DNA of 33,771 nucleotides from a virus: positions 1-33,771 of IMG/VR virus record IMGVR_UViG_3300031857_000734; one strand, 5' to 3'. Shown here piece by piece: positions 15,482-32,627 of this stretch. A program made the translations under genes and the position numbers. The notes beneath the pieces were generated by a model, which saw only the letters and a program-made list of their open reading frames with translations, did not search any database and was not told the origin of the DNA. Position 1 is the first letter of the stretch. Every line of letters begins with the position of its first letter.

Positions 15482-16389
15482 TATGCCCAGCTCCATGGCC
15501 CAAGGCCTAAGACATTGAAGTCTACCGATTGGTACCTGTTAAATGCAGGTGTGATGAACACCGGTGTGCTCAGGCTGGTATTGATCCCGCCCGATCCGTT
15601 GAGGTTGCCAGTCACCTGCTGGAATGCATCATCACCAAATGGCCTTCTTGTCCCTGTTCCTTTGGTGCCACCCGTCCAATAGTACGTGCCTTCGTCCAGC
15701 AGCTTGATCCTCCAGCCTTCGCCGCCGTTGTACCAGAACTTGAACCGGTACTCCACCTGCCAGTATCTGGTGGTATCTTTCCGCTGCTGCTGCGCGGTGA
15801 TCTCTGAGCACAATACCTGGTTGGCCGACCAGCCCCAGAACGGCTGGCTGTTGACTCGGTTCATGTAGGACTGAATTTGGATGTGATCGAAATAGAGCTC
15901 TGCCCGGCTGATCGTGAGCACTGGCACTGACTCTGGTGTGGTGAGCGGTGGGAGCTGCTCGCCGGCACTGTTAAGGATGGGCCTGGTCGGGTCCTGTGCA
16001 TCATAGATCAGTGGCACCTCGATCGTTTCTGCCGACCACTGCCAGGTGGGTGTGAGATCCCATGGCTCCTGGTTCATCTCATTCGGCCTGAGAGCCGTGT
16101 TGTCAAAGGTGCATTCCACCTCCCACACACCCTGGCCAATTTCCACTGGGCTGCGCCGGTTGCAGAATGCACCAGGGGCGATCTCACTGGCAGCACCGAG
16201 GGCCGGGACGCCTGGCACCAGCAGCACCTGATCCTCTCTGGCCAGTGCATCTCTGCTGCCTGTGAGCCCTGGCCCTGTGGTCATCACGACCACATAAACC
16301 ATCGAATGCTCGACGTTGACCCGGAAGTTGTCCAGGTTGATTGTCTCGGATCCATTGATCCCGATTCGTGGGCCAAAGCACGCGCTCAT
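15481..16389 (-). CDS. distal tail / baseplate-type protein
   Basis: A 302-residue beta-rich protein immediately downstream of the tape measure gene, the usual place of the distal tail protein. Recognisable phrases are TTPESVPVLTISRAELYF, VNSQPFWGWSANQVLCSEITA and YWQVEYRFKFWYNGGEGWRIKLLDEG. They recur in tail-tip genes of planctomycete-type phages. The link to baseplate attachment is by position and not by a known domain. ATGA overlap with the tape measure gene. Confidence 0.6.
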   Translation of the reverse strand: MSACFGPRIGINGSETINLDNFRVNVEHSMVYVVVMTTGPGLTGSRDALAREDQVLLVPGVPALGAASEIAPGAFCNRRSPVEIGQGVWEVECTFDNTALRPNEMNQEPWDLTPTWQWSAETIEVPLIYDAQDPTRPILNSAGEQLPPLTTPESVPVLTISRAELYFDHIQIQSYMNRVNSQPFWGWSANQVLCSEITAQQQRKDTTRYWQVEYRFKFWYNGGEGWRIKLLDEGTYYWTGGTKGTGTRRPFGDDAFQQVTGNLNGSGGINTSLSTPVFITPAFNRYQSVDFNVLGLGPWSWA

Positions 16390-18149
16390 ACACCAAACTC
16401 CGTCAGTAAAAGCTTTGGATCCCGCAGCACCTTGACGACCTGCTGCAGCAGCTGGGCCTGCTGCCTCTGGATCACCAGCTGCTGATTCAGTGCATTCTCT
16501 CTGAACTTCTCGATGGCCGCTGTGCTGGTCGCCTCGAGGGCCTGAGGTGTGGCCAGCTGCACCGTCTTATTCGCTGCCTCCTGCTGGGCCTCCAAGGCCG
16601 CCTGGCGATCCATTTCCTTGGCTCGCTCCGCCGAATCATCGACTGCCGGCTTTTCCTTGGCTGGCTTTGGTGCTCCAGCTCCTTCTGGCTGGCCGGCTTT
16701 CAGATCCTGCAGCTGCTCGAGGTTGGTCAGTGCCACCTGCTGGCCAGCTTCCAGCTGCTTCTGGACTGCGTCCTGTGACTTCTCGACTCCGTCAGCCGCA
16801 TCCTGCGCCGCCTTGGCCGTCTCTGCCTTGGCTGCTTCCCGGGCCGCCATGATCTGCTCGCGCTGCTTGTCAAACTTGGCTTTTTGGTCGGCAACGAATG
16901 CCTGAACATCGGCCACAGCCTTCTCGCCAGCCTTTGGGTCCATCAGGGTGTCGAAGCCAGCTTCGACTCGCTTGCGGTTTTCTTCCTGCAGTTTGGTGGT
17001 GGCCGCGCTCACCTCGTCCACAATGCTGACCAGGTTATCGATCGACTCTTTGCCAAAGACACCTCGAGCCAATGGGTTATTGATCATCAGCTTAAAAAGG
17101 CCCATGAGGTTCAGCATCAGCTGGCGCATGGTCCCCATCAGCATGTTGAAGCCGGTATCCACCAGAGCAAAAGCTTTGACGATGTAGCCGGCTGCACTGC
17201 TCGCCAGCAAAGCATTGTCTCCCAAGCCACCCAGTGCACCGCCAAGGCCTCCAGCTGATTGCTCTGTGACACCCATGCTCATGATCAGCTCCCGGAAATA
17301 TCCCAAAAGAGCCTGAGCAATTGGAATGAAGATTTGCCCGATGGTTGCTGATACGTCATTGATCGTAGCCTGGAGGGCCTTCAGACGATTGGCAAAGGAG
17401 TCTCCAGATCGGATCACATCGCCCTGTGCCAAGGTCGACCCCTGCAGAATCAGGTTGTATCGAGCCATCGCTTTCTGTGCCTGGTTGGCTGTCTCGGGAT
17501 TCAGGCCTTTGGCCAGGAGCTCTGCCTTTACCGCTGCCTCATCCAGCTTTGGCCCCAGCCTGCCGAGGGCCTCAGCTTCGCCGAGCATTGCAGTCCGAAC
17601 TGCATTGAATGCTTCAGCATCGCTGACATTGTTGAGGCTGGCAAAATCGTAGGCTAGGCTCGTAAGGGTTTTGCTCATCTCGGCTGCCATCGCGGGGTCA
17701 ATGCCTAGTGGCACGAGCTGGCCTTGGGACATTGCCAAGAAGTCCAAGACCTCCTGGCGAGATCTACCAATCTGGCTCGCAAAGGTAGTCCCCCATTGCT
17801 GCATCGATTCGGCTTGCGACCCAAAAACCACATTGAATTTGTTGAGTGTCTCCTCCAGGTTGGAAGCAGCAAAGATCGCCTTGGTCATCCCAGCCACTGC
17901 AGCACCGCCGATGGCAGCTCCTGCGATCGATCCATACTTCAGAGTGATCTTTGTGAGGTCGGCAAATTCCTTTTTGGCACTCTTGAAAAACTTGTTCAGC
18001 GCCGATGTGTTGGGGGCTGCTTTGACACCTGCCAGCCTGGTAGCAAAGTTGCGAACGCTTGCCTGCATTTCGGCAAAGGCCTTGGCAAATTCCTCTTTGC
18101 CCTTCACCGACATCTCTACATAGGCCTGGCCGGCCAGCTCTGCACTCAT
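16386..18149 (-). CDS. tail tape measure protein
   Basis: A 587-residue protein with the tape-measure pattern: a helical start (KGKEEFAKAFAEMQASVRNFATRLAG), a hydrophobic Gly/Ala section (IAGAAIGGAAVAGMTKAIF, about 75-93), FNVVFGSQAESMQQWGTTFASQIGRS and further amphipathic or hydrophobic stretches to about 345. A long charged coiled coil (about 370-560) rich in Ala, Lys, Glu and Gln follows. Tape measures set tail length at roughly 1.5 angstrom per residue, which gives about 85-90 nm for a long flexible siphovirus tail, if the whole chain counts. It overlaps both neighbours by ATGA. Confidence 0.85.
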   Translation of the reverse strand: MSAELAGQAYVEMSVKGKEEFAKAFAEMQASVRNFATRLAGVKAAPNTSALNKFFKSAKKEFADLTKITLKYGSIAGAAIGGAAVAGMTKAIFAASNLEETLNKFNVVFGSQAESMQQWGTTFASQIGRSRQEVLDFLAMSQGQLVPLGIDPAMAAEMSKTLTSLAYDFASLNNVSDAEAFNAVRTAMLGEAEALGRLGPKLDEAAVKAELLAKGLNPETANQAQKAMARYNLILQGSTLAQGDVIRSGDSFANRLKALQATINDVSATIGQIFIPIAQALLGYFRELIMSMGVTEQSAGGLGGALGGLGDNALLASSAAGYIVKAFALVDTGFNMLMGTMRQLMLNLMGLFKLMINNPLARGVFGKESIDNLVSIVDEVSAATTKLQEENRKRVEAGFDTLMDPKAGEKAVADVQAFVADQKAKFDKQREQIMAAREAAKAETAKAAQDAADGVEKSQDAVQKQLEAGQQVALTNLEQLQDLKAGQPEGAGAPKPAKEKPAVDDSAERAKEMDRQAALEAQQEAANKTVQLATPQALEATSTAAIEKFRENALNQQLVIQRQQAQLLQQVVKVLRDPKLLLTEFGV

Positions 18150-19461: not shown

Positions 19462-19932
19462 TTATGGGACGACGTACCAGCTGGGTGCTACATGCGCCCC
19501 TGAAACGCCACCCGCATTCTTGCATGGACGCAAAGAAACGTCCACCATGATGGCCTCGCCGAGGTTTTCGTTGAGCGTGAAGCTCTTCACCATGCAGAAC
19601 GCGCGCAGCCCCTGGTTGCCGGTCGATCCAGCACCGGTGATGATGCCGTCCATCACGGCAAATTCCACAGCACTCTTTGCGAAGAATGCATCCTCCAGTG
19701 CGGTAAAGTCCTGATCCGCTGGATCGTACAGCATCGAGAAGTCGATCGTGGCATCGATCATTCCATCGACGTATTCCTGGAATCCATTGCTGGCCCTGGT
19801 TGTGACGTCAGTCTCGCCTTTGTCCAGGCTCAGGGTCAGATCTTTGACGTTGGCGATCTCGTTCCAGGTCGGGCTCGCATTGGTCCCAGTGTTCCGGTAA
19901 AGCTTGGCATTCTCAGACAGCTTGTGCGCCAT
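19462..19932 (-). CDS. major tail (tube) protein
   Basis: A 156-residue protein with the tail-tube pattern: WNEIANVKDLTLSLDKGETDVTTRASNGFQEYVDGMIDATIDFSMLYDPADQDF, then AVMDGIITGAGSTG and a closing strand region with SFTLNENLGEAIMVDVSLRP. The tube protein forms stacked hexamers through which DNA passes. I used the ATG at 19932. A TTG six bases upstream is in frame but overlaps the previous stop. It lies between the neck genes and the chaperones, as expected. Confidence 0.8.
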   Translation of the reverse strand: MAHKLSENAKLYRNTGTNASPTWNEIANVKDLTLSLDKGETDVTTRASNGFQEYVDGMIDATIDFSMLYDPADQDFTALEDAFFAKSAVEFAVMDGIITGAGSTGNQGLRAFCMVKSFTLNENLGEAIMVDVSLRPCKNAGGVSGAHVAPSWYVVP

Positions 19933-19934
19933 GT

Positions 19935-20366
19935 TCAAAATCCTTTGAATCGGATGGTGATGGTGGTAAACAGCAGCCCGAGCTCACTGACTTTGGCCGC
20001 ATCGAATGGAATATCTGTCTCGATCTCGTCTGGTATCTTGCCACCTGGTCGGAAGGTCTCCAGGCTGGTGGCGATCTCGTCGATCAGCTGCAGGAACTGG
20101 CCAGCCTTCGTCTCCTGCTCGGCTGCCGACACATCAGCGCTGTATCTGACAACGACGCCAATGCTGTAGGTTTTTAGGTGGCTCCCCGACCTGGCCAGCT
20201 TCTCCCTGGATGACGGGCCAGCATAGACCGACACATCCCATCCACTCAGCAGGTCCCGATCGAACACAGGCACCAGCTGCTTGCGCGGAGTGAATGCTTG
20301 GCTGTACGTTGCAGCGTCGATATAAGCCACTGCATCGTTGACCAGAGTCTCCTGCACGCCTGCCAT
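19935..20366 (-). CDS. tail terminator-like neck protein
   Basis: A 143-residue protein. The order (capsid, connector, this gene, tail tube) and the alpha/beta pattern (VNDAVAYIDAATYSQAFTPRKQLVPVFD, TYSIGVVVRYSADVS, LQLIDEIATSL, FTTITIRFKGF) match tail terminator proteins that cap the tube and join it to the head. The start overlaps the upstream stop by one base; the in-frame start at 20423 is less likely. Assignment is by position and pattern, with no single decisive motif. Confidence 0.65.
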   Translation of the reverse strand: MAGVQETLVNDAVAYIDAATYSQAFTPRKQLVPVFDRDLLSGWDVSVYAGPSSREKLARSGSHLKTYSIGVVVRYSADVSAAEQETKAGQFLQLIDEIATSLETFRPGGKIPDEIETDIPFDAAKVSELGLLFTTITIRFKGF

Positions 20367-20731
20367 CACATCTCCCTGGTATGGATCCTGATGATCACCT
20401 GGCTTGGATCGGTGTACTTCCACTGGGCCTCAGTCCCAGTGGTGAGAACAGCATAGGTCTTGCCACTTTCCTGGATCCTGTCCCCCTTCCTCGGCAGCGT
20501 CTGGGATCCTCCCAGTATCAAGTCCGCAACGCGCACCAGGTAATCTCTGGACTTGACCTGCTCGATAACCATCCCATCCTGGGTTATCTCGTGATCAGAT
20601 CGGCCAGTGACCACCTTTGAGAGAGCCACCGACTGGGTAGCCGATGGCCTCTCGTAGGTGATGTTCACGCCATGGACCACCTGCAGTGCCCGATAGGCAT
20701 GCAGGGCCGCTGCCGCAAAGGGGGTGCTCAT
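20366..20731 (-). CDS. head-tail connector / neck protein
   Basis: A 121-residue protein directly downstream of the capsid gene. Features include VNITYERPSATQSV, VKSRDYLVRVADLILGGSQTLPRKGDRI and YTDPSQVIIRIHTRE. These are typical of small beta-rich head-closure proteins in the planctomycete-type phage neck region. It would seal the portal after packaging and receive the tail. Its start overlaps the capsid stop (TAATG). Confidence 0.65.
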   Translation of the reverse strand: MSTPFAAAALHAYRALQVVHGVNITYERPSATQSVALSKVVTGRSDHEITQDGMVIEQVKSRDYLVRVADLILGGSQTLPRKGDRIQESGKTYAVLTTGTEAQWKYTDPSQVIIRIHTREM

Positions 20732-21660
20732 TACGTCAGCAGGGCCTCAGTGGAGCTGATCCGATCGGTGACGATGATGGGCACGCCAAAGGATTCCTGC
20801 GGGAATGGCGCAGGTGATCCAGTTGGATTGGTCGCCGTCCGGCTGCGCTGCAGCTGGCCGAGCGATCGCCGATTCATCACGCAGACCGTTGGGCCTCGGC
20901 CAGCTGGGAATCGCTCGATTGCTTGGCTGATCAGGCTGTCGGTCAGTCCTTTGCCACTGTCCGCAGTCAGGTTAGCGATTCTAACCGCACTGTTGACGGT
21001 ACCGACCTTGAGACCGCACCATCCGTGGATCGAGTGAGCCAGGGCCCAGAATCGGCCAGTGCTCGATCCTGCTCGCTCCACTCGGGTCCGCTCGCCGATC
21101 GAGATCACGCCCTGTGCACCCCAGACGAGCTGGAGATCTTCCTCACCCATCCGCAGCAACCAGCACGATGAGCCGGTAGCCGCAGTGGTACCAGCAGCAT
21201 TCACCACCTGTGCGTCTGCGATGTTGTTCAAATTCGTCTGCTGGGCCAGACCATCGAAGCCACCGGCCTGGTTGCCGGTGCCGTAGATAATCTGCTCTTC
21301 GATCTCAGCCATCGCCTGGCGAAGGTGTGAGATCGCCTCGATCCCCATGATGTGATCGACACCACGATCATCAACCAGCGCGGCTGCTTCGTCCACAGCG
21401 AAACTGGCATCGAGGAATCGCAGAGTGGTGGTGACGGTGGTGTAGGTGCCGATGGTGTTTTCAACCCCATCGTTGACCGCTCGGAAACCAACCGCTGGGT
21501 TGGCCGTCTTTTTGTTGTACACGAACGTGGCACCGGCAGTGGTTCGGGCTGCCATCGCTGCCACGAGTGGCGACTCGTCGAGCACATCGCTCAAAAGAAG
21601 CTCCATGTCGACCTTGTTGAAGGCCACCACATTGGCACTGGTCAGGTAACTATCAGGCAT
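20731..21660 (-). CDS. major capsid protein (HK97-like fold)
   Basis: A 309-residue protein between prohead protease and neck genes. Capsid-like phrases are VLDESPLVAAMAARTTAGATFVYNKKT, FLDASFAVDEAAAL, AMAEIEEQIIYGTGNQAGGFDGLAQ, SIHGWCGLKVGTVNSAVRIANLT, VCVMNRRSLGQLQRSRTAT and SFGVPIIVTDRIS near the end. They match HK97-fold capsids in general and planctomycete-type phage capsids in particular (from memory). ACGGAGC precedes the ATG. The upstream 63-base gap contains a hairpin that may raise its expression over its neighbours. Confidence 0.82.
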   Translation of the reverse strand: MPDSYLTSANVVAFNKVDMELLLSDVLDESPLVAAMAARTTAGATFVYNKKTANPAVGFRAVNDGVENTIGTYTTVTTTLRFLDASFAVDEAAALVDDRGVDHIMGIEAISHLRQAMAEIEEQIIYGTGNQAGGFDGLAQQTNLNNIADAQVVNAAGTTAATGSSCWLLRMGEEDLQLVWGAQGVISIGERTRVERAGSSTGRFWALAHSIHGWCGLKVGTVNSAVRIANLTADSGKGLTDSLISQAIERFPAGRGPTVCVMNRRSLGQLQRSRTATNPTGSPAPFPQESFGVPIIVTDRISSTEALLT

Positions 21661-21723: not shown

Positions 21724-22797
21724 CTAGTTAGCCAGGGCTGCGCCCCACTTGCTCGTCACAGCAGAGCCGCCTTTGGCTTTCAGCTCTTCCTGCTTCTGCA
21801 GGGCTCTTTTCTTTTCGTCGCTGATCTCGATCCGTGGAGCCGAGGACAGTGCCTCTGGTTCTCCAGCTGCTGCCCGCGTGGCGGCTGCCAGTCGAGTCTC
21901 GAGATCTGCTACCTTGGCCGACAGGTCGGCATTCTCAGCTCGCAGCTCGGTGGTCACCTCGGCAAAGCATTCGGTGATCGATCGGCCTTCCAAAAACCAC
22001 TTCGCGCCGCGATCCCCGAATGTCTCGAGGTACGGCTTGGCCGCGTCCAGAGTCAGGCCAGCAGGAGCCGCAGGGGCCGGAGCTGTGGTCTGATCCTGGC
22101 CAGCTTTTCCCGCTAGCACTTCATCCATAATGTCCCTTCCATAATGCTTGGACAAAAAGGAGCACATCCTTTCAACCACCTCGCGGGGCTCCCGATCCGC
22201 AAAGTGGGTGTTCACAATCCAGCTGGTAAGAGCTGGCAGGCCGGCCATGGTGGTCATATCGAACAAGCCGCCGCGGGTAGCTGCTGGCTCGTCAACGATG
22301 TCGATCGCTCGCAGGCCGTCCAGCCGCAGAGGAATGACTTCGCCTTCTGGCGGTTCCTGATTCATCGAGAAGTGCAGCCTGGTGGCAGCGCTGACCCCAA
22401 AGGCCTCAGGATCCTCCTCGGCCAGGTCCATGACGTAGGTGGCCAGGTCGCCGTTGGGGGTGTCGAAAGCAGAATCGGCCAGCTGCAGATCAGCGTAGAC
22501 CGCATCGCCATCCCGCCTGAAGTTGGTCCACCGGCCAAGGTACTTCCCGAATCCGTCATCACTCATGCTGGGGTGGGTGTACCTGGCCTTTGTGCCTTTG
22601 TTGTACGACCTGCCAAAGTTGACCACCTGGTCGAGAGTGGTCTCATCGACCTCCCAGGGCCGGCTGTCATTGACTCGGCCAAGCTGCATCACCTTGGCAC
22701 CATTGATCCGTCTGGCCTCTCGATCGACTCCAACCATGGGAGCCGCTCGCATGGTGGCCGTCCGAAAGCTTTCAGCTGCTGCTTGAATCGTCGCCAT
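21724..22797 (-). CDS. prohead protease with scaffold-like C-terminus
   Basis: A 357-residue protein. The N-terminal part (about 20-170) resembles phage prohead proteases (U35/S78-like): VGVDREARRINGAKVMQLG, KARYTHPSMSDDGFGKYLGRW with a probable catalytic His, LADSAFDTPNGDLATYVMDLAEEDPEAFGVS, and LRAIDIVDEPAATRGGLF. From about 245 the Ala/Pro linker and Glu/Lys coiled coil (ELRAENADLSAKVADLETRLA) look like an internal scaffold that the protease removes. GAGAGGA before the ATG at 22797 supports this start. It overlaps the portal gene by 26 bases. Confidence 0.78.
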   Translation of the reverse strand: MATIQAAAESFRTATMRAAPMVGVDREARRINGAKVMQLGRVNDSRPWEVDETTLDQVVNFGRSYNKGTKARYTHPSMSDDGFGKYLGRWTNFRRDGDAVYADLQLADSAFDTPNGDLATYVMDLAEEDPEAFGVSAATRLHFSMNQEPPEGEVIPLRLDGLRAIDIVDEPAATRGGLFDMTTMAGLPALTSWIVNTHFADREPREVVERMCSFLSKHYGRDIMDEVLAGKAGQDQTTAPAPAAPAGLTLDAAKPYLETFGDRGAKWFLEGRSITECFAEVTTELRAENADLSAKVADLETRLAAATRAAAGEPEALSSAPRIEISDEKKRALQKQEELKAKGGSAVTSKWGAALAN

Positions 22798-24220
22798 TGT
22801 CTTCCTCTCCGTTGCTTTCGTCTTCGTCATCTGGCTCGTCCGCCTCTTCCTCTGGCTCCATCGATGGGGCTGGCCCTGGCGGTTGCTCAGTGGTGGCCGC
22901 AGACATCCCCATCTCCTCGAGGAATCGCTCCTCTTGAGCCAGCTGGCGGACAACATCCCGCCAATCGTCGCCGTATCGTTCGCGCCTGATCTCTGACCTG
23001 GTGCGCAGTTTGTTCTGGATGGCGAGCACATCGCCTGCGATCTCGTCCTTTGGATTCCACCAGGGCATGCCGGCAGGGATCCAGTCCCATTTCAGGTCAT
23101 CGACGGTGTAGCCTCGAGGCAGCACAAGAGCACCTTCAGCCACCCAGCTCAGGATCTTCCAGACTGTGATTCGATCGAGGATCTCGACGATGTCAGCCCG
23201 TTTGCTTTTCACACTCTGCAGATACTGGATCAGTGCAGCGCGACTGCCAAAGAAATTCGTGAAGCTTTCATCGTAGAAAGACCATGGAATATCTAGGCTC
23301 TTGAGCGCCGCCTGCATGCAGATCGTTAGGAATGCCTGGAATTCCGTGGAGGGGTGCCGGCTCTCCAGGAAATCCATCTTATCCCCTGGATCAAGCTCGA
23401 CCTTTACTGGGCCTCGGCCAAGATCGATCTGATAGCTCGAGCCGACCTCCTCCTCGTCGTCCGAATCCGCCATCTCTCGAGTGATCGCCAGAGCAAAGAG
23501 CTGGGTGATCTTTGCCTTAGCTCTTGCGTAGTCTTTGACCTCCATGCTGTCCTGGAATTCGGCAATGGCCGACACCAGTGGGGAGACCCCGCGCACCTGG
23601 TCGAATGAGTCCCAGTAGGCCAGCTGCATGCAGTTGCCGGCCAGTACCTGCTTTTCTTCCTCATAGCGTCCATCGCTGTGACGTTTGAAGACCTGAACTG
23701 CGGACATTCCACCGCCTGGATTAAGCCGGATTCCATGGGTCCAGTTGGTGCCACCATTGCCATTGATCTGGCTGGTTGGATTCTGGATCCGGTCGCCTTC
23801 GATCCCCTGCAGTTTGCCGTTTACCTTCACCAGGAAGATGTCGCCATCGAGCACCCGCCTGGCCTCGGCCAATCGGATCATGCGCCGCAGGGAATGCCTG
23901 GCCGCGACATCGCAGTTGATCGGCCTGGACCACCAGGCCATCAGCGACTCGAGCCGCTCATTAAAAACCGGATCCTCGGTGCTGGCCTGGAAGGTAAAAG
24001 TGGAAACGAAATCCAGGTGCTTTCTGACTGCCCAGGCAGCCACTGAGTAATTCCGCCAGAGCTCTCGAGCTCCTTCGATCACTCTTTTCCGTTTGGTCGA
24101 ATCCAGCAGTGCATCGCTGGACTGGATCCTGGTGCCAGGGTCCCGCCGCTGGTTGCCAGCTTCGCCTGCGATGTATCGCCCAAAAAGGCCTTGAAGTCGA
24201 TCCTGTACCTGTTTGATCAT
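22772..24220 (-). CDS. portal protein (lambda type)
   Basis: A 482-residue portal, the dodecameric ring for DNA entry and exit. Family phrases are RELWRNYSVAAWAVRKHLDFVSTFTFQ, AARHSLRRMIRLAEARRVLDGDIFLVKVNGKLQGIEGDRIQNP, YWDSFDQVRGVSPLVSAIAEFQD, SLDIPWSFYDESFTNFFGSRAALIQYL and VWKILSWVAEGAL. The C-terminus is a very acidic, Ser-rich tail (EEEADEPDDEDESNGEEDNGDDSSSS), probably disordered. The ATGA overlap with the gpW-like gene and the downstream protease place it in a lambda-like head gene order. Confidence 0.85.
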   Translation of the reverse strand: MIKQVQDRLQGLFGRYIAGEAGNQRRDPGTRIQSSDALLDSTKRKRVIEGARELWRNYSVAAWAVRKHLDFVSTFTFQASTEDPVFNERLESLMAWWSRPINCDVAARHSLRRMIRLAEARRVLDGDIFLVKVNGKLQGIEGDRIQNPTSQINGNGGTNWTHGIRLNPGGGMSAVQVFKRHSDGRYEEEKQVLAGNCMQLAYWDSFDQVRGVSPLVSAIAEFQDSMEVKDYARAKAKITQLFALAITREMADSDDEEEVGSSYQIDLGRGPVKVELDPGDKMDFLESRHPSTEFQAFLTICMQAALKSLDIPWSFYDESFTNFFGSRAALIQYLQSVKSKRADIVEILDRITVWKILSWVAEGALVLPRGYTVDDLKWDWIPAGMPWWNPKDEIAGDVLAIQNKLRTRSEIRRERYGDDWRDVVRQLAQEERFLEEMGMSAATTEQPPGPAPSMEPEEEADEPDDEDESNGEEDNGDDSSSS

Positions 24221-24490: not shown

Positions 24491-24730
24491 TTAAATCCCT
24501 TGATCTGGTCCAGGATCTGGAGTGATCGGCCAGACCTCGCGCAGGGTAAAAGGGCTCTCGCATGCTTTGCACCGAACGTGATAAAGCTTGATCCGGTTTC
24601 CATCATGCTCAAATTCATGATAAGCGCCGGACTGCTTGAGAACTCCAGCAGCTTGGCTGCAATGTGGGCAAACCGGCATTGTGATCGTTGCCCTCAGCTT
24701 GGGCTGGTCGGCTCGCTTCTTGGTGCTCAT
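24491..24730 (-). CDS. small zinc-finger protein
   Basis: A 79-residue protein with CPHC (about 21-24) and CKAC (about 54-57), a classic four-cysteine zinc ribbon, in VCPHCSQAAG ... YHVRCKACESPFTLREVW. Small zinc ribbons often sit beside terminase genes and may help in DNA recognition or take the place of a small subunit, but this is inference. The ATGA overlap couples it to the terminase gene. Confidence 0.65.
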   Translation of the reverse strand: MSTKKRADQPKLRATITMPVCPHCSQAAGVLKQSGAYHEFEHDGNRIKLYHVRCKACESPFTLREVWPITPDPGPDQGI

Positions 24731-26871
24731 AGATATTCCACCCTCCTTGATCGTTTTGGCTTTGGTCCGTGCGATGGAATCGGTTGCTCTGGAATTGGTG
24801 CTCCAGTTGGAGAGCCTTCAATGGATCCCACAGCAGCGCGAGATTTCCTGATCTTTCGGCCAGACTCGCCCTCTAGTCGGCAGCCTTCGACGCTGGCCGC
24901 CACACAGCAGCCGACCAGGCAATCGAACCAGTGATTATCTGGCCGGTCTGGCTTGTGCTTCCACTCGTCAACTGTCCGCCCTTTACCCTCTGTTCGAACT
25001 GGGTATTCCGCCCGTAGGTGCTTGGCCAGGGTGGCATGCTCGTGCGCGTCGCCCTTGTGCAGCACGAGGCTGCCGCTGGTCCCTGGTTCGGTCGCCAGCC
25101 TGGAATGCAAAAAAGACTTCCAAAAATTGGTATCGAAAAGCACATGCCGGATTGGAATGTCTTTGGCTCGATCGATTCGCCAATGCTGGCCGGTGGCTCT
25201 GCCGAATCGTTTCACATGGTGTGCATTCAGTGGCTCACTGCTTGCCGTGATTCCTCGTCCGTGACTTGGGAAAAGAATCGATCGGTGGAGGCTAGTCCGG
25301 CAGAACTCATAAACCAGGTTCCTCGACTGGCCCCAGTTGGCATCAATCATGATCCGGCTGAATGGCACCTCAGCGCCCGCTGCACTCTTCCACTGCTTAG
25401 TGGCCAGGTGGTGAACCAGGTCTTTTAGTGCCTTGGTCAGCCGCACCTCGAGCGAGTCAGCAGGGTACAGCTTGGAAAGTGTCTTTCTGGCTGTCGACAG
25501 CTTAAAGTTGTTTCCGCGCTGCTGTGGCCAGGCTCCATACTCCACCACTGTGCCGGTGAAGTCAGATCGCCAGGCCACCACCGACCAGAAGAGCATTTCC
25601 TTTTGCACATCGATAAAACCGACCAGCTGGTCGGTGTGCTCCTGCAGCTGCCCCTTGGCAGTGATTCCAACCCGATCACAGATCTCCTTCTCGCCGAGGA
25701 TCGAATCGTCGGCCTGCTTTTCCATGGGATGGTTTTGGTACTCAGCCCAGAAGCTCTCTTCGTCCCTGAAGTAGAGATTCATAGCGTTCTGGATCGCTGA
25801 GAGCTCATCTGGGTTGAATCGCTCGGACCAGGACGCCTCGCAGCCCGAATCCATCGCCGCCTGGTTCTCTCGATAAAACTCAGTCGCCTCCGCCCCTTCG
25901 CCGCCATTCCTCAGGCTGGCTTTCTTTATCTCGTAGTATTCCTGCCACAGGTCCATGTTTGACGGCATGCCATAGAGCAGCTGGGTGCGCTCGCCATGCC
26001 ACTCTGGCGACTGCTGCCGATCGAGGGCAGTATCGGCCAAATCGCCCTTGCGAATGACAGTGCATGGCATGACGCCAGCGATCTTAACCCCAGGCCCAGA
26101 GAGCCCGAGCACATCGCCGTTTATCGTGGCGATCCGGTTATCGGTCTGCAGGTTGCTGTGGGCTGACTCTCGCGTTTGTGGATCGTCAGGGATGACGTAA
26201 TCCGGTCGCAGCACTTCGCCGTTGGGGGTGGTGTACTGCTGGCCTCTGACGTCCCCAGTAATACCGCAGACCGACACCACCGATCCGCTGGCCTTGGATC
26301 CTGGGATCGTTGGCAGGATTAGCAGATTGGACAGCCACTGGATCCCAGTGGGCTCGCCCTGATAGGTCTGACCTCCTGCTCTAGCAGCTCGCCCCTCCAG
26401 TTGCCGGATCGGAAAGCACACCTCGGGGAAGTCCTCCAGTAGGAGGCTGTTAAATCGCAGCTCAGACTTGATCGAGCTGAGCAGCTTTTCTGCCTTGCCT
26501 TCGGTGGCACCGATCAGGCAGGCCCATCGCCGATATCCGTATAGCAGGGACCACAGAGCAGCCGTCACCGCCAGTGTGGTCTTGCCGTTGCCTCGAGGCA
26601 TGGCCAGAGCGAACAGTCCGCCATGCCTCACAGTGATCTCGATCCGGTCGATCACCCGCAGGTGATCCCTGGACCACCCCAGGGAAAAGGCTGCTGGCCG
26701 GTAGGTCTCGCAGAACTGGCGAAAAGATTCAGCACACTTTTTCCGCCGCTTGGGATTCTCGATCTTTGGTAGCTCGCCAATGTCAGATCCGGCTGCGCGG
26801 AGGGATCGCATTCGCTCCGCCATCTTTTGCCGGTGCTGCTCGTAGCTTTTCTTATCCAGCTTGGCTGGCAT
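24727..26871 (-). CDS. terL: large terminase subunit
   Basis: A 714-residue DNA-packaging motor of the lambda gpA-like type. The ATPase region has MPRGNGKTT (about 89-97) as Walker A and other conserved stretches (ALWSLLYGYRRWACLIGATEGKA). A Walker B-like YVIPDDPQT is near 225. The nuclease half has FIDVQKEMLFWSVVAW, FSRIMIDANWGQSRNL and DNHWFDCLVGCCVAA, where acidic residues would hold metal. The last 50 residues are basic and Pro/Ser-rich. No adjacent gene looks like a normal small subunit. It starts at the last base of the fibre gene (TGATG). Confidence 0.85.
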   Translation of the reverse strand: MPAKLDKKSYEQHRQKMAERMRSLRAAGSDIGELPKIENPKRRKKCAESFRQFCETYRPAAFSLGWSRDHLRVIDRIEITVRHGGLFALAMPRGNGKTTLAVTAALWSLLYGYRRWACLIGATEGKAEKLLSSIKSELRFNSLLLEDFPEVCFPIRQLEGRAARAGGQTYQGEPTGIQWLSNLLILPTIPGSKASGSVVSVCGITGDVRGQQYTTPNGEVLRPDYVIPDDPQTRESAHSNLQTDNRIATINGDVLGLSGPGVKIAGVMPCTVIRKGDLADTALDRQQSPEWHGERTQLLYGMPSNMDLWQEYYEIKKASLRNGGEGAEATEFYRENQAAMDSGCEASWSERFNPDELSAIQNAMNLYFRDEESFWAEYQNHPMEKQADDSILGEKEICDRVGITAKGQLQEHTDQLVGFIDVQKEMLFWSVVAWRSDFTGTVVEYGAWPQQRGNNFKLSTARKTLSKLYPADSLEVRLTKALKDLVHHLATKQWKSAAGAEVPFSRIMIDANWGQSRNLVYEFCRTSLHRSILFPSHGRGITASSEPLNAHHVKRFGRATGQHWRIDRAKDIPIRHVLFDTNFWKSFLHSRLATEPGTSGSLVLHKGDAHEHATLAKHLRAEYPVRTEGKGRTVDEWKHKPDRPDNHWFDCLVGCCVAASVEGCRLEGESGRKIRKSRAAVGSIEGSPTGAPIPEQPIPSHGPKPKRSRRVEYL

Positions 26872-28730
26872 CAGGGAGACCCGAGGAGGCTGTTGAGCTC
26901 GAGGGTACCGATGGCATCCTCAGGAATTGTCACATAGACCACCTGGCCGGTTCCCCGCTGGCAAGCATACCGAATGCCAGGAGTCAGGTCGGTAAACTGT
27001 GCCACTCCAGCCCCATTGCTGGTAGTGGTCCTGGTTCCGGTGTCGATCGCCAGACCGGTGGATCCATGGGGCACCGCGGTGGCCTGCATGGACATCGTAA
27101 CCCCAGACTCTGGCAGACCGTTGACCCCTAGGCAAAGCCAGTAGCCTGTGACGCCACCAGGTCCGCTGGGTGTGATGGAGATGGCCGTCAGGGTGTAGGT
27201 CTGGGTCTGGTTCGCGCTGACCACCAGCACTGCGCCGCCAAAGGTCGCATTGGGCGATCCGATCCCCACCACCCAGCTGCCATCATCGACATTGAAGGTA
27301 ATCTGGCCAGAGACGTTGGTCGAGCCGACGTAAGTCTCAGCCGCCTTGGTCAGCCGCACCCTGGCACCCTCCACCGGTGCTCCAGCTAGAAGGACCGTGA
27401 TGGTCACTGTTCGCGCGCCGGTTCCGGTTCCACCACCGCCGCCACCGGTTGGTGCCAGGCTGAGTGCACTGGCCGTCCACTTGGCATTCGGTGTACCGCT
27501 GCCAGTGATCATCGTCACCAGGTCGACCAGGACCGACAGGGCCGCCACTGCATTGGCCACCTCGGTGGCTGCCGAACTGGCGAGGGCATTGGAATCGAGT
27601 GCACCTGTCTGGAATGCCAGGTTGGTGATTACGCCTGGCTGGATTTCGTGGACGTCAGCGCCGATGTGCCCAGCGCCGCTGCCTGTCACCTTCACCGTCC
27701 GATTGTCATTGTCGCTGATCAGGATCCGGTCGCCAAAGGATCCATTGGCGTAGCCAGCGCTCGGCAGAGCATTGAGCACAGCATCCCGATTCTGGTTGGC
27801 CGTGGGGATGTCCCCAACCGCAGCTGGCAGGGCTGGAAGATTGTCGGTCTTTGCTTTGATCGCCTGGAGGACCGTCAGGCTGTCGTAGTCCACCACCGCC
27901 CCAATCCACTCGCTGTACCTCGCCTCGCCACTGACGGTGCCAGAGATCGTGACGCGCAGGCTCTCCGCTGCATGGGTGCTGGCCACAGTGTAGGTGAAGG
28001 TGTACCGACCAGTCGCTGGATTGGAGACCGCCGACAGATTGGCCGATCGGCTTGTGCCAGCTGCATTGGCCGCCGCGATCGTCGGGGTGGAATCAAGGTT
28101 TACCAGCTTGTCTTCGTCGTCTCTGACGATGACAGTGAAAGCATAGACCAGGCTGCCAGACTCTGGGATTTCCATCAGTGGAGCTGCGTAAACATTTACC
28201 TTGGCCGAAAGATTGTTGAGCCCCTGGACTGCCGACAGGATTGAGGCAGCCGTTGCCTCCTTGGCCAGGATGGTGGACGCCTCGATCTGGGCTAGGGTTG
28301 GCCGATTGGTCAAAGTGGTCTCGCTGGCCACCGAGGCTGGCAGTGTGACTGGGGCTCCAGCTGTGATCGCCTGGCCGGCAAACCGCCGAACGTCACCAAG
28401 GCCGTTGGCACTGTCCAATGCCTTATCAAAAAGAGCATCAAAGACAGTGGGCTCCATCACCATGTAATGATGGTTTGACATGCTCATGGCTGAATTGTTG
28501 ACGCTGATGGAGGCCCTGCCGATGGCATCTGTGTTGCCGGTGCTCAGTATGACCAAGTAATAGCCGTTGTGAGAATGAGTGGATGTGGTTGGACTGGCCA
28601 GCGCAGCAGTGCTGCCGACCTTGGTCAAATTAAAATCTCCAACCACAGCAGTGGTGACTGCCAGGCCTGAAGAATCCAGCACAGGCCCAACCAGTACGGT
28701 AGCCGCCGTGTTTTGACGCAAAGCCTGCAC
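26871..28730 (-). CDS. tail fibre / host-contact protein
   Basis: A 619-residue protein that I start at a GTG overlapping the upstream TAG, with GGAGGG 9 bases before it. It opens VQALRQNTAATVLVGPVLDSSG, a common first module of fibres and adhesins. Strand and Ala/Ser-rich repeats and short coiled stretches (AVLQAIKAKTDNLP) follow, then Ig-like sections (SLVYAFTVIVRDDEDKLV, GRYTFTYTVAS). A Gly6 hinge (about 455-463) precedes a C-terminal carboxypeptidase-regulatory-like sandwich (VEGARVRLTKAAETYVGSTNVSG). Receptor binding is inferred from architecture. Its position before terminase is unusual. Confidence 0.65.
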   Translation of the reverse strand: MQALRQNTAATVLVGPVLDSSGLAVTTAVVGDFNLTKVGSTAALASPTTSTHSHNGYYLVILSTGNTDAIGRASISVNNSAMSMSNHHYMVMEPTVFDALFDKALDSANGLGDVRRFAGQAITAGAPVTLPASVASETTLTNRPTLAQIEASTILAKEATAASILSAVQGLNNLSAKVNVYAAPLMEIPESGSLVYAFTVIVRDDEDKLVNLDSTPTIAAANAAGTSRSANLSAVSNPATGRYTFTYTVASTHAAESLRVTISGTVSGEARYSEWIGAVVDYDSLTVLQAIKAKTDNLPALPAAVGDIPTANQNRDAVLNALPSAGYANGSFGDRILISDNDNRTVKVTGSGAGHIGADVHEIQPGVITNLAFQTGALDSNALASSAATEVANAVAALSVLVDLVTMITGSGTPNAKWTASALSLAPTGGGGGGTGTGARTVTITVLLAGAPVEGARVRLTKAAETYVGSTNVSGQITFNVDDGSWVVGIGSPNATFGGAVLVVSANQTQTYTLTAISITPSGPGGVTGYWLCLGVNGLPESGVTMSMQATAVPHGSTGLAIDTGTRTTTSNGAGVAQFTDLTPGIRYACQRGTGQVVYVTIPEDAIGTLELNSLLGSP

Positions 28731-29533
28731 TATGTCAGCCCTCCACAAATTAGCCGCCGCCTGCGGTTGCCACCTGTCACACCTTCGAACGCATTCCGCC
28801 ATCGTTTTGATCTCAAGCCAGAATGCCGGCCATCACGCCACATCTGGTACACCTCAGATGGTGTGTGTACCACATTGTAGACTCTGGCATCGTCCGCTCG
28901 CCCAAGATAAAAGCTGGCTGCTGAAACTCGAAAATACGCGCCAAGACTTAGCCTGTTTAATGTCATAGTCCGAGCAACAGTATCAGACTGCGCCACATCC
29001 AGAACACCGTTTACATAGATCGCAGTCTGGGCTGTGCTTTGACTGACGTAGATATGGGTCCACTGGTTGGAGTTTGTTGTCCTGGTTCCTGTTCGATCAA
29101 TTGTTCCTGTGCCGCCATCCGACCTCACACTCAGGATGACATTCCGGCCAGAATTTATAGTTCCGATGATCCAATATGGATTGTTTGACGCTGAGCTCGT
29201 AAATCCCCAAATCCCTCGATATCCGGTCGTGGAATCGTTGTTTCGAATCCACACCGACATAGCAATGGACTTTGTAGCAGGGATGTTACCAATGCCACCG
29301 CTGCCAACTGATGTGGTTGTTACCACATCGTTTGTCCCATCAAAGTCCAGCGCAACATATTGACCATCCGCAATGTAATCCTCGGATGGTGCCATGTTGG
29401 TCAGTGTTCCACTGCTTCTACCGCCGACTCGATCCAAAAGAATCGTGCCGTATGGAGGCAAGCCAGGCACCCAGGCACAGACTAGGCCTCTTAGTGATGG
29501 GCATCCAGATGTTTTTGGCTTTCGTTTGTACAT
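28730..29533 (-). CDS. LamG-domain virion protein
   Basis: A 267-residue protein with a concanavalin-like (LamG) fold: YVALDFDGTNDVV, ATKSIAMSVWIRNND, QWTHIYVSQSTAQTAIYVNGVLDVAQSD, ASFYLGRADDARVYN, HTPSEVYQMW. These domains bind carbohydrate or protein, so it is a candidate for host-surface recognition. The last 30 residues are Arg-rich (RSKRWRNAFEG, NRRRRL). The ATG at 29533 follows the previous stop by one base; the upstream in-frame start at 29590 would overlap that gene. Codon use is similar to neighbours. Confidence 0.78.
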   Translation of the reverse strand: MYKRKPKTSGCPSLRGLVCAWVPGLPPYGTILLDRVGGRSSGTLTNMAPSEDYIADGQYVALDFDGTNDVVTTTSVGSGGIGNIPATKSIAMSVWIRNNDSTTGYRGIWGFTSSASNNPYWIIGTINSGRNVILSVRSDGGTGTIDRTGTRTTNSNQWTHIYVSQSTAQTAIYVNGVLDVAQSDTVARTMTLNRLSLGAYFRVSAASFYLGRADDARVYNVVHTPSEVYQMWRDGRHSGLRSKRWRNAFEGVTGGNRRRRLICGGLT

Positions 29534-29534
29534 A

Positions 29535-30026
29535 TCAAATCGAATCGTACACTGGCTGGATTCGGATGTAATGATTGCCAGCAGTAGCATTCAGCGCCAC
29601 TGATGTGCTGTGCGTGACAAAGAAGACAACTTTCTCTGGCACATCGCCTCCAAAGATGTCGCTCAGCAGCCGAGGCCCAAACTCCGTGACGAGGTTAGAG
29701 CCTGCTGGCATGGTAGCCTGGTGCACCAGTCGGCAAAAACCAAGTTTTTGCACAGCAGTGGAAATGGTTTCTGCCGAATCTGTTCCGTCAAAAACATCGG
29801 GCCATCCAGTGCCATTCCATCCGATTGCATGGACCTCGATGGATCCCGCCAGGTTGCTTGTTCCGGTCGTGATCTTGCCGGCCACCCATGCATCACGATA
29901 TCCGTTGGCCGTGTTGGTCCATTCGGTGCTTTCTCGGCCAGCAAGGAGGTTAGCATCCGCTGCCAGGCTGGCGATCGTGATGGTAATATCCGACGCGGCT
30001 ACATAGTTGGTCTTTGCGTTTGGCAT
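29535..30026 (-). CDS. virion fibre-associated protein
   Basis: A 163-residue beta-rich protein. YVAASDITITIASLAADANLLAGRESTEWTN and the end VVFFVTHSTSVALNATAGNHYIRIQPVY recall virion proteins that accompany LamG-like fibre genes in planctomycete-type phages. No enzymatic residues are seen. It starts at the stop of the preceding gene (TGATG). Probably a structural partner of the LamG protein. Confidence 0.6.
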   Translation of the reverse strand: MPNAKTNYVAASDITITIASLAADANLLAGRESTEWTNTANGYRDAWVAGKITTGTSNLAGSIEVHAIGWNGTGWPDVFDGTDSAETISTAVQKLGFCRLVHQATMPAGSNLVTEFGPRLLSDIFGGDVPEKVVFFVTHSTSVALNATAGNHYIRIQPVYDSI

Positions 30027-30451
30027 CACTTCCTCGCATTCTGAACCAGGCCGACACCAACAGTCCCAATCCCTTCATGCTCCACCCATGGCACCGTTTG
30101 ATTGGCCATGGCATCGAGCTCGTTCACCACCTGCTGGCTTGCAAAGCCGCAATCCACCAGCCCCTGCAGCATCTGCTTGGTTTCTGCCAGATCCATATCC
30201 ACCGTATCCAGCTTGGTGGAGGTGATGTACTCCAGAATGTTTATCGCCAATTCCTGGCATGGGTTGGATGGATCGGTCTTGGCCAGCTCAAGTTTCGAGC
30301 GATACTGTCGCTGGCTCGCATGAGCGATCACTCGCCAAAGTGGTACTGGTCGCCGCACCTCCACCATCTTGGCCATGATGGCACTGGCAGCCTGCTGATC
30401 GCTCAGCCCCTGATACTGTGGCTTTGACAATTCATCTCGAAGCTTTTGCAT
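30026..30451 (-). CDS. unknown soluble helical protein near lysis genes
   Basis: A 141-residue helical protein. The N-terminal half, MQKLRDELSKPQYQGLSDQQAASAIMAKMVEVRRPVPLWRVIAHA, follows a recurrent phage pattern (LRDE ... YxGxTDxQAAxxxNA) found between tail-fibre and lysis genes, of unknown role. The C-terminus (CGFASQQVVNELDAMANQTVPWVEHEG) is helical too. Start at the TGATG overlap with the holin-like gene. Function is not known. Confidence 0.6.
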   Translation of the reverse strand: MQKLRDELSKPQYQGLSDQQAASAIMAKMVEVRRPVPLWRVIAHASQRQYRSKLELAKTDPSNPCQELAINILEYITSTKLDTVDMDLAETKQMLQGLVDCGFASQQVVNELDAMANQTVPWVEHEGIGTVGVGLVQNARK

Positions 30452-30672
30452 CAGGATTCCTCGCTCTTTCTTTCCGCCACTTCCTTGATCGAAATCCAAA
30501 GACGCTCCCGATCCTCACGGCATTCTTTAAGATCTGCCTTAATTGCTTCGGTGTTGCGCTCCACCTGCTTGTACAAATGCAGCACCACACCAGAGAGAAC
30601 GGATAGGCCACCCAGAAGCAGCCCAACCAGACTGGTGTCTACAGCAGCGATAAGGGTTGGGGTTTCAAACAT
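30451..30672 (-). CDS. holin-like membrane protein
   Basis: A 73-residue protein with one membrane segment (about 10-31, VDTSLVGLLLGGLSVLSGVVLHLY), then a charged helix (KQVERNTEAIKADLKECREDRERLWISIKEVAERKSE) that should be a cytoplasmic coiled coil. This outline matches class III-like phage holins and related superfamily III proteins. It follows the papain-like peptidase gene directly (TGA then ATG) and is a good candidate to control timing or release of that enzyme. It could also be an antiholin. Confidence 0.6.
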   Translation of the reverse strand: MFETPTLIAAVDTSLVGLLLGGLSVLSGVVLHLYKQVERNTEAIKADLKECREDRERLWISIKEVAERKSEES

Positions 30673-31494
30673 TCAAATGGCTCCAGGTGTATCACCTTTG
30701 TCAAAGGTGGTTGAACGTATCAAATAGAAGGCATGGTATCTGATTGTGGATTGCAAGTGGCTGGCCCAGGTGATCCAGTTGTGGCCCTTGTTCCCCCACT
30801 TTAGCCCCCAGCTGTTGGCCGATTCAAATTCATAGCTGCCGGCAGAAGAGATCCGAATATCGTGGACCAGCACAGCATGATTGCCTGGCCCACTGGCTGG
30901 AGGGCTGACGCCTCGACCATCGAGTCGCCCATAGGACTGGGTGGCATGGACAGCAACCACGCCACAGAATCCAGCAGCCAATCCGCTCGCCAGCTCGTCC
31001 TCTGTCTCGACTCGGTAGCACTCGTGCGCACGGTTGCGCCGCATCGAATCCACAGCTTCTTTTGAAAGCTGTCTCTGAGTCAGGAATTTGGCCAATGGGA
31101 CATACTGCTCCTCAGGCACTCCATTGTTTTTAAGGGCATGCATCCCATCGTCCAGCATGCTGCCCTGGTCCCTGCCTCCGTTTATGAGGGCATAGAGGCC
31201 TTCGCCAGAAAGCCGCCGCCGCCTGATACCTCTGGACACCTGTGTCCTCTCAAGGGCATGAGCTGCTGCCTGGCCGTTGCAGCTGCCGACATTCCCCTGG
31301 TTGCGGATCCATTCCTCTGGCTTCCACAGCCTGGATCCAGCCACCCGCCCTGGATCCGTGACGATCCTGGCGATCTGGTCCCGTGTGAACATTGGGCCGT
31401 TCTCGCCGTAGACAGGAAAGGTCCGAGGCTTGAATGCTGGCAGCAAAAGGCCTGTGCCAAACTCCTGGCCATCGACGACGATGATCTCACTCAT
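30673..31494 (-). CDS. papain-family (C1) cysteine peptidase, candidate endolysin
   Basis: A 273-residue protein with a full papain catalytic set. RNQGNVGSCNGQAAAHALER (64-83) gives Q66 (oxyanion) and C72 (nucleophile), GPGNHAVLVHDI (202-213) gives H206, and FESANSWGLKWGNKGHNW (223-240) gives N227 in the classic NSWG...WG form. There is no signal peptide or transmembrane segment. The N-terminal 60 residues may act as a propeptide. It lies beside a holin-like gene, with no lysozyme, amidase or transglycosylase in the window, so it is the best candidate for the lysis enzyme. Alternative roles are virion maturation or host-protein cleavage. Confidence 0.78.
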   Translation of the reverse strand: MSEIIVVDGQEFGTGLLLPAFKPRTFPVYGENGPMFTRDQIARIVTDPGRVAGSRLWKPEEWIRNQGNVGSCNGQAAAHALERTQVSRGIRRRRLSGEGLYALINGGRDQGSMLDDGMHALKNNGVPEEQYVPLAKFLTQRQLSKEAVDSMRRNRAHECYRVETEDELASGLAAGFCGVVAVHATQSYGRLDGRGVSPPASGPGNHAVLVHDIRISSAGSYEFESANSWGLKWGNKGHNWITWASHLQSTIRYHAFYLIRSTTFDKGDTPGAI

Positions 31495-31886
31495 AAGCCA
31501 GCATACCTCTTGGTGAGCCGATCGATCTCCTCGGTGGAATCAGGCAGCTTGCCCTGGTAGAGCACCTTGCTGCGCTCGCCTGGTGTCTGGATCAGGATCC
31601 CTGGCACCTGGCCACCGAGAGCCTTCACCTGGCTGGCCGCTTCTTCCTGATCCTTGTCGTAAATGATCCAGTTGAGACCCTTGTCTCGCAGGCTCTGCCA
31701 GTAGGCCGCATTGGTAACGATCTTGGTGATCTCGGGAGTACGCTGGCTGGTCTCTTCAACCACAACCACCCAGGCCCCCTGGATCGGATCGACTGGCCGG
31801 ATCGGATCCACAGAATCGCTCTTGCGACTGGACAGCAGCAGAAGAAGGATCACCACCAGAGGTGCCCAGCGATCGAAACCTTTCAT
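31491..31886 (-). CDS. membrane-anchored thioredoxin-like protein
   Basis: A 131-residue protein. A short N-terminal membrane segment (about 8-20, APLVVILLLLLSS) is followed by a linker with PIRPVDPI and a compact alpha/beta domain (AWVVVVEETS, WIIYDKDQEEAASQVKALGGQVPGILIQTP, EEIDRLTKRY). The GQVPGILI loop looks like the cis-proline loop of the thioredoxin fold, but there is no CxxC, so it would not be a redox enzyme. It overlaps the peptidase gene (ATGA) and belongs to the lysis region. Signal-anchor topology suggests a periplasm-facing domain. Confidence 0.6.
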   Translation of the reverse strand: MKGFDRWAPLVVILLLLLSSRKSDSVDPIRPVDPIQGAWVVVVEETSQRTPEITKIVTNAAYWQSLRDKGLNWIIYDKDQEEAASQVKALGGQVPGILIQTPGERSKVLYQGKLPDSTEEIDRLTKRYAGL

Positions 31887-32171
31887 CTACTGCCCCCAAA
31901 TCGAGGAGACGATCTCAGCCAGTTTCGGCTTGGCCTGGTCGATTTTTTGTTGGGCCAGATAGCTCGCCAGTGTGTCAGCTGCATTCATGGCCTGCAGTCG
32001 ACTGATCGCTCCAACCGGGGTTGGTGGTGGCTCAGGTGGCTCAGGTGGGACTGGTGGAGGTGGGGCTGGCTGGGGCTGGCTGTTACCGCCAAGGATGTTC
32101 CGCCATGCCCAATAGGCGCCGATCAGCAGGGCACCGGCTCTCCAGGGATTGTTGATCACATCATCCCACAT
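31887..32171 (-). CDS. small membrane protein with Pro-rich linker
   Basis: A 94-residue protein with a hydrophobic N-terminal segment (about 12-27, AGALLIGAYWAWRNIL), a linker of repeated Pro and Glu residues (about 32-52) and a helical C-terminus (AADTLASYLAQQKIDQAKPKLAEIV). The order anchor, Pro-rich linker, helix resembles a phage spanin-type part, but a lipobox cysteine is absent. The ATG at 32171 overlaps the preceding gene by 11 bases. The longer in-frame start at 32225 looks artificial. Confidence 0.55.
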   Translation of the reverse strand: MWDDVINNPWRAGALLIGAYWAWRNILGGNSQPQPAPPPPVPPEPPEPPPTPVGAISRLQAMNAADTLASYLAQQKIDQAKPKLAEIVSSIWGQ

Positions 32172-32442
32172 CGTCGGTGTCCTCCTGCCAAGGCTCGCCG
32201 AGCTCTGGCTCGTCTGCTGGATCATCCTCCTGCTGCTCTCGCCACCACAGCCAAAGCTTGATTGCCAGTTGGGCCAGCATCAGGATGGTGGCAGGGTCGA
32301 GGCCGACCAGCTGCGGATCGCTCTTTGCCAGGCCTTCGAATTCCACTTTGCAGCGCTCGACATCGCGGTACTGTCGCCAGAGCTGGGCAGCTAACTGCCG
32401 AGCTCGACGTTTGGCCCTGAGCCTTTCGAGTGGTCCGCTCAT
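32161..32442 (-). CDS. unknown small protein with hydrophobic helix
   Basis: A 93-residue protein: a basic start (GPLERLRAKRRARQLAAQLWRQYRD), a hydrophobic helix (about 48-66, DPATILMLAQLAIKLWLWW) and an acidic tail ending EDTDDVG. It may be peripheral to or span the membrane. No family recognised. The ATG at 32442 is 2 bases after the upstream stop. The ORF extends upstream to 32673, but that part overlaps another gene in a different frame and looks unnatural. Confidence 0.55.
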   Translation of the reverse strand: MSGPLERLRAKRRARQLAAQLWRQYRDVERCKVEFEGLAKSDPQLVGLDPATILMLAQLAIKLWLWWREQQEDDPADEPELGEPWQEDTDDVG

Positions 32443-32444
32443 GT

Positions 32445-32627
32445 TCAGCGCTCCGAGGATCGCAGCGATTCGCCAACGATCCACGAGCCGACAAGCAGCA
32501 CGACCTGAGTGATCTGCTCCTCGGTCAATGGGATCGCCATGGTTTCCTTGAGCACCACAACTGCGACACCAGCAGCCGCGATCCAGAATCGCCGAGATTT
32601 TAGCAGAGAATCCAGCTTGGCCTGCAT
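32445..32627 (-). CDS. small membrane protein, first gene of late block
   Basis: A 60-residue protein with two hydrophobic segments: RFWIAAAGVAVVVLKETM (about 12-29) and ITQVVLLVGSWIVGES (about 39-54), joined by IPLTEEQ. This two-helix pattern is common in phage holin-like and superinfection-related small membrane proteins. The ATG at 32627 follows CGAGG. As the first gene of the minus-strand block it lies just downstream of the probable late promoter. Confidence 0.58.
   Translation of the reverse strand: MQAKLDSLLKSRRFWIAAAGVAVVVLKETMAIPLTEEQITQVVLLVGSWIVGESLRSSER

Follow-up and report, generated by a model that had tools for sequence, protein, structure and literature searches.

In the 33,771-base virus record analysed here (the window), a papain-like cysteine peptidase of family C1 occupies the slot usually held by a wall hydrolase, and its gene is nearly always accompanied by one for a membrane-anchored thioredoxin-like protein. 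This combination suggests that the host is burst by cutting proteins or peptides, not the sugar chains of the wall. The reading preferred here, with somewhat better than even confidence, is that the peptidase serves as lysis enzyme in a holin-dependent cassette and acts outside the membrane. Several lines of evidence support a lysis role: a block of membrane-protein genes by the terminase, a holin-like gene, replacement within the slot by other papain-like proteins, a membrane segment at the N-terminus of some variants in more distant relatives, and the fusion or adjacency of C1 domains to lysins in Alicyclobacillus and Thermoanaerobacterium phages. An earlier note on this DNA had proposed that the peptidase and a neighbouring holin-like protein form a lysis system built on protein cleavage. 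Gene context supports the lysis role. It does not discriminate between cleavage of proteins and of peptidoglycan peptides, and the holin candidate chosen was the weaker of two. The features discussed are collected in table 1.

Table 1. Features of the peptidase cassette and late genes in the window.
Feature	Position	Strand	Description or evidence
C1 (papain-like) cysteine peptidase	30673..31494	(-)	273 aa; PF00112, AlphaFold2, Foldseek, homolog conservation
Codon of Q66	31297-31299		peptidase catalytic set
Codon of C72	31279-31281		peptidase catalytic set
Codon of H206	30877-30879		peptidase catalytic set
Codon of N227	30814-30816		peptidase catalytic set
Thioredoxin-fold partner	31491..31886	(-)	131 aa, membrane-anchored, N-terminal TM; AlphaFold2, Foldseek, synteny
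Best holin candidate	32445..32627	(-)	60 aa, one or two hydrophobic segments; PHROG 9987 'holin'
Small cassette protein	32161..32442	(-)	basic N-terminus, hydrophobic segment, acidic tail; homologs in order
Small cassette protein	31887..32171	(-)	one TM, Pro-rich linker, small C-terminal domain; homologs in order
One-TM protein	30451..30672	(-)	73 aa, charged coiled-coil-like tail; directly downstream of peptidase
Terminase large subunit	24727..26871	(-)	PF20454 E 2.4e-18; PHROG 38 E 2.1e-31
Portal	22772-24220
Major capsid	20731-21660
Tail tube	19462-19938
Tape-measure-like	16386-18149

The assignment to family C1 draws on profile, structure and conservation. The product matches Peptidase_C1 (PF00112) with an E-value of 2.7e-8 and 34.6 bits, above the curated cut-off of 20.7 bits, and this was its only match in the Pfam search. 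It also matches PHROG 16701 ('peptidase'), and cathepsin K is a sequence-level match. The AlphaFold2 model has a papain fold (mean pLDDT 90.6, pTM 0.91), and in the structural comparison with C1 peptidases that the earlier note had recommended, the best PDB matches found by Foldseek are xylellain and procathepsins (E to 1.6e-14). The catalytic set read from the letters (Q66, C72, H206 and N227) is borne out by the profile match, the fold and an alignment of 33 diverse viral homologs. The first three residues are present in every homolog; N227 is kept in 28, with Q in four and G in one. The loss of catalytic residues in most homologs, which the note had named as contrary evidence, is thus not seen. 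Estimates of dN/dS against two relatives (0.08 and 0.05, the latter with dS near saturation) indicate strong purifying selection. The C1 peptidase of one locus (L051) is split by an intein (Intein_splicing, E 5.8e-10) inserted immediately ahead of the catalytic cysteine. Inteins typically sit in essential active sites, for example just before a catalytic residue. Taken together, the sequence data and the model identify 30673-31494 as a real C1 peptidase gene, not a chance resemblance. As a separate observation, the L051 peptidase intein (L051:4651-6555) carries a LAGLIDADG-like segment.

The late operon with the terminase lies downstream of the cassette. The cassette also adjoins or lies near terminase genes of several different types in unrelated phages (L010, L023, L072, L079, L080 and L084), in agreement with the placement of the peptidase among late genes first proposed for the window. 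Phage lambda also has its lysis genes ahead of those for the terminase. Between cassette and terminase, the window encodes a protein with a Laminin-G-like (ConA lectin) domain (28730-29590), probably a receptor-binding or virion protein.

In order of transcription, the block runs 32445-32627, 32161-32442, the gene ending at 31887, 31491-31886, the peptidase and 30451-30672. The first product has a weak match to PHROG 9987 ('holin', E 2.7e-4), and its homologs occupy the same place in related phages. Homologs of 32161-32442 stand in the same order in close relatives, and proteins resembling its product occur in L038, L040, L045, L058, L063 and L065. The third gene, whose start at 32171 is taken from its homologs, likewise has same-order homologs, with similar-looking proteins in sister phages. 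The last product resembles a 68-aa protein of L040 and has a homolog in L007. Its matches to PHROG 9120, a family without assigned function in PHROG (1.3e-3), and to a PADLOC '4TM' effector (3.5e-3) are weak, and neither Pfam nor PHROG places it in a family with confidence; it could be a holin, an antiholin or an inner-membrane spanin-like protein. This was the gene originally paired with the peptidase. Its position directly downstream stands, the label 'holin-like' is weak on the PHROG 9120 match, and by sequence 32445-32627 appears to be the better holin candidate. Among 72 small membrane neighbours compared with PHROG, there were almost no matches.

The most conserved companion of the peptidase is the thioredoxin-fold gene, which the proposed lysis pairing had passed over. 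It lies directly upstream of the peptidase and overlaps its start in an ATGA. The AlphaFold2 model (pLDDT 87) is thioredoxin-like (Foldseek E about 4e-4). The domain contains no cysteines; W63 and P95 are invariant, and P95 is probably the cis-proline. A partner profile locates the protein immediately ahead of the peptidase gene at 61 of 66 viral loci; the loci were taken one per contig, and as some contigs are near-identical, independent events are fewer than 66. The CxxC active site is absent in all 61. The pair also occurs in very divergent loci and in a 595-kb phage. One locus counted as partner-less (L005) is an ORF-calling artefact, the partner being seen there in a separate profile search. 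At L087 and L088, where the partner was not found, the proteins are divergent and have a signal or membrane segment of their own. The sister phages L129 and L100 have a different membrane-anchored protein.

These sister phages, found via the window's terminase (77% TerL identity for L129, 71% for L100), bear on whether the slot is taken over by classical endolysins in related phages, a check that the earlier note had proposed. The slot holds another papain-like protein instead. The window-type peptidase is absent from both, and the protein in its place carries Q66, C71, H239 and N257-SWG. It goes unrecognised by Pfam but is matched by a combined papain profile; as that profile contains these sequences, the match is not independent. 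A third version of the slot protein, in L106, is PF00112-positive. The more distant relatives G037 and G039 encode the L129-type protein with an N-terminal membrane segment, preceded in G039 by small membrane genes. The occupant of the slot stays papain-like across changes of sequence type, and some types are apparently targeted to the membrane or across it. In another sister phage (L097:1299-2448), the upstream membrane genes of the cassette are followed by no intact peptidase frame, possibly through a frameshift or sequencing error.

Downstream of the peptidase, further proteins with cysteine motifs are encoded in several relatives. Small CxxC proteins, by sequence exported, lipoprotein-like or membrane-anchored, follow directly in L037, L038, L041, L039, L046, L058, L065 and L083. 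Only that of L083 has a Pfam thioredoxin match (PF00085, E 5.4e-7); the others look thioredoxin-like by motif and layout. No CxxC gene stands next to the peptidase in the window. A cysteine peptidase at work in an oxidising compartment would be well served by an exported reductant. Small secreted proteins with cysteine motifs near one end (e.g. CPTGNC, CVGGNC, CGPNGC) are also encoded downstream of the peptidase in L040 (8798-9046), L044 (8068-8484), L054, L061, L106, L129 and L100. In L025, a trypsin-like protease with a probable signal peptide (6010-6699; PF13365, E 3e-11) is encoded directly downstream of the C1 peptidase.

A planctomycete-type host is suggested by the terminase. The best 80 relatives in cellular genomes comprise 54 from Planctomycetota, 14 from other PVC bacteria and 12 other or unnamed (hand count of record titles), at identities of only about 47-51%, and give a moderate indication of a Planctomycetota or PVC host. 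No homolog of the window peptidase subfamily was recognised in 392 Planctomycetota genomes, where only cellular-looking C1 proteins appeared at strict E-values, so the host is drawn from TerL only. One scan of genome contigs for prophage copies of the peptidase in named hosts gave none, and the terminase-relative loci in cellular genomes carry no such peptidase. No close DNA relatives were found among cultured phages. In three Planctomycetes chromosomes (L194, L206, L222), the terminase relative is accompanied, by eye, by helicase/primase-like and ParB-like genes, and no capsid genes were noticed within 10 kb of it; these loci are possibly phage satellites or remnants. In Planctopirus limnophila, most peptidoglycan-synthesis genes are dispensable (PMC10632474), and wall preparations of Planctomycetales contain cysteine-rich YTV proteins (PMC8567305).

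The following course of events is proposed. (i) The peptidase would accumulate in the cytoplasm, as no signal peptide was seen on it. (ii) A holin, most likely 32445-32627, would release it at lysis time. (iii) Outside the inner membrane, it would meet the partner protein, the thioredoxin-fold domain of which is expected on the periplasmic side. (iv) The partner may anchor, chaperone or position the peptidase. (v) Where relatives encode an exported CxxC protein, as several do, this could maintain the catalytic cysteine in reduced form or break disulfide bonds of the envelope. (vi) Finally, the peptidase would cleave either wall peptides or a protein of the envelope. If the host is of the Planctomycetales type, the cysteine-rich protein wall would be the natural target, an attractive but only possible substrate; the enzyme may act on a wall protein, an S-layer-like protein or wall peptides. 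A bolder version of the scheme, put forward tentatively and at well under even confidence, makes the papain-family protease and its near-obligate, redox-dead thioredoxin-fold partner a new phage lysis module for disulfide-linked, cysteine-rich protein walls, which would cut protein and possibly reduce cross-links, with a redox-active thioredoxin added in some phages.

Searches of the window revealed no lysozyme, SLT, Amidase_2, M15, NlpC/P60 or M23 domain, and the earlier statement that it encodes no lysozyme, amidase or transglycosylase held in searches with PF00959, PF01510 and PF01464. Across 40 viral records (25 with the peptidase and 15 terminase relatives), PF00959, PF01464, PF01510, PF13539 and PF00877 had no match, and PF01551 had one, below the cut-off. 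This absence discriminates poorly, because the terminase relatives, in most of which no papain-like gene of any kind was found, show no classical lysins either. It may reflect the insensitivity of such searches to divergent lysins, and the record is possibly incomplete. Within the cassette, the peptidase offers only a C1 domain and no known peptidoglycan hydrolase.

An unrecognised wall hydrolase could perform the main lysis, with the peptidase as an accessory envelope protease that removes S-layer or other surface protein. We consider this unlikely. It would fit the firmicute phages, where the C1 domain accompanies a normal lysin: the C1 gene of THSA-485A has a GH25 lysozyme gene as its neighbour, and the MMB025 domain is part of a fusion with a glycosidase-like endolysin. 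The trypsin-like exported protease gene that follows the C1 gene in L025 points the same way, as does a small L042 protein with, by eye, a possible NlpC/YiiX-like look, which no Pfam profile matched. Against such an accessory role, six wall-hydrolase families give no match above cut-off in the 25 peptidase-bearing records, and the slot in sister phages keeps a papain-like protein without exchange for a wall hydrolase.

No greater probability attaches to a lysin that, like its superfamily relatives of the NlpC/P60 and CHAP types, cuts peptidoglycan peptides and not proteins. CHAP provides the precedent of a papain-superfamily lysin that cuts wall peptides (PMC10318531), the pseudomurein endoisopeptidases PeiW and PeiP cleave the wall peptides of methanogens (PMC4592898), and planctomycetes are reported to possess peptidoglycan (PMC4432640). 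However, profile and fold group the enzyme as a true C1 peptidase with cathepsins and xylellain, not with NlpC/P60 (no match to PF00877), and it bears no wall-binding domain.

A cytoplasmic protease for host takeover, anti-defence or superinfection, anchored to the membrane or inhibited by the thioredoxin-fold protein, is improbable. In its favour, the window peptidase shows no signal peptide or N-terminal membrane segment of the kind expected of a secreted or SAR endolysin, and the tight two-gene pair could represent a protease and its inhibitor. However, the partner is membrane-anchored, an action outside the membrane is favoured by the exported CxxC proteins and by the peptidase variants with a membrane anchor, and the gene sits among late genes. 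A role in a defence system was considered and set aside, as PADLOC matched neither peptidase nor partner. Processing of capsid or tail proteins by a morphogenetic protease would agree with the late-gene location and is very improbable, given that the gene lies among those for membrane proteins and at a distance from portal and capsid, and that a membrane-anchored partner is conserved.

Annotations of phage C1A peptidases (BFVD, THSA-485A) and lysins of the papain superfamily are already known. In the open-licence literature, no description was found of a C1 peptidase in a holin cassette, or of a true C1 enzyme that apparently does the main work of lysis and is almost always paired with a thioredoxin-fold protein; neither 'papain' nor 'cysteine' occurs in the main text of a catalogue of viral lytic proteins published in 2025. 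If true, proteolytic lysis would widen the endolysin idea beyond peptidoglycan hydrolases. The peptidase would also allow a direct test of which components give planctomycete-type cells their cohesion: P. limnophila can do without most peptidoglycan-synthesis genes (PMC10632474), and YTV proteins occur in Planctomycetales wall preparations (PMC8567305). Even without proteolytic lysis, so strict a pairing in phages that differ widely offers a clear way into an uncharacterised system.

Known systems resemble the cassette in part. The closest viral folds are the C1A peptidases A0A6J5QDM8 (TM-score 0.87/0.90, 30% identity) and A0A6J7XQB9 of uncultured Caudovirales, whose function in BFVD is a domain name only. 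Xylellain (3OIS) and the cathepsins share the family C1 fold and catalytic residues with the window peptidase, but they are cellular, and the cathepsins have pro-regions and are secreted or lysosomal, whereas the window peptidase has no recognisable secretion signal. PeiW and PeiP, members of a different family, differ in substrate and in having dedicated wall-binding domains. They are alike in the principle of peptide-bond-cleaving lysis suited to an unusual wall (PMC4592898). The annotated endolysin of Alicyclobacillus phage MMB025 (XXN61434.1, PV686781.1) shares with the window peptidase a C1 domain of PHROG 16701, which is N-terminal there; unlike it, the domain is followed by an Rv2525c-like glycosidase domain and then a peptidoglycan-binding domain, and the partner profile found no thioredoxin-fold protein. 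Thermoanaerobacterium phage THSA-485A likewise has a C1 peptidase gene (peptidase C1A, AFK87691.1), which adjoins a lysin gene; unlike in the window, the neighbour directly upstream encodes a classical GH25 lysozyme with a peptidoglycan-binding domain, and the profile found no thioredoxin-fold partner. Structure matches in BFVD also include phage proteins named peptidoglycan-binding-like and N-acetylmuramidase. MMB025, THSA-485A and these last BFVD matches tie C1 domains to lysis, but as companions of a classical enzyme.
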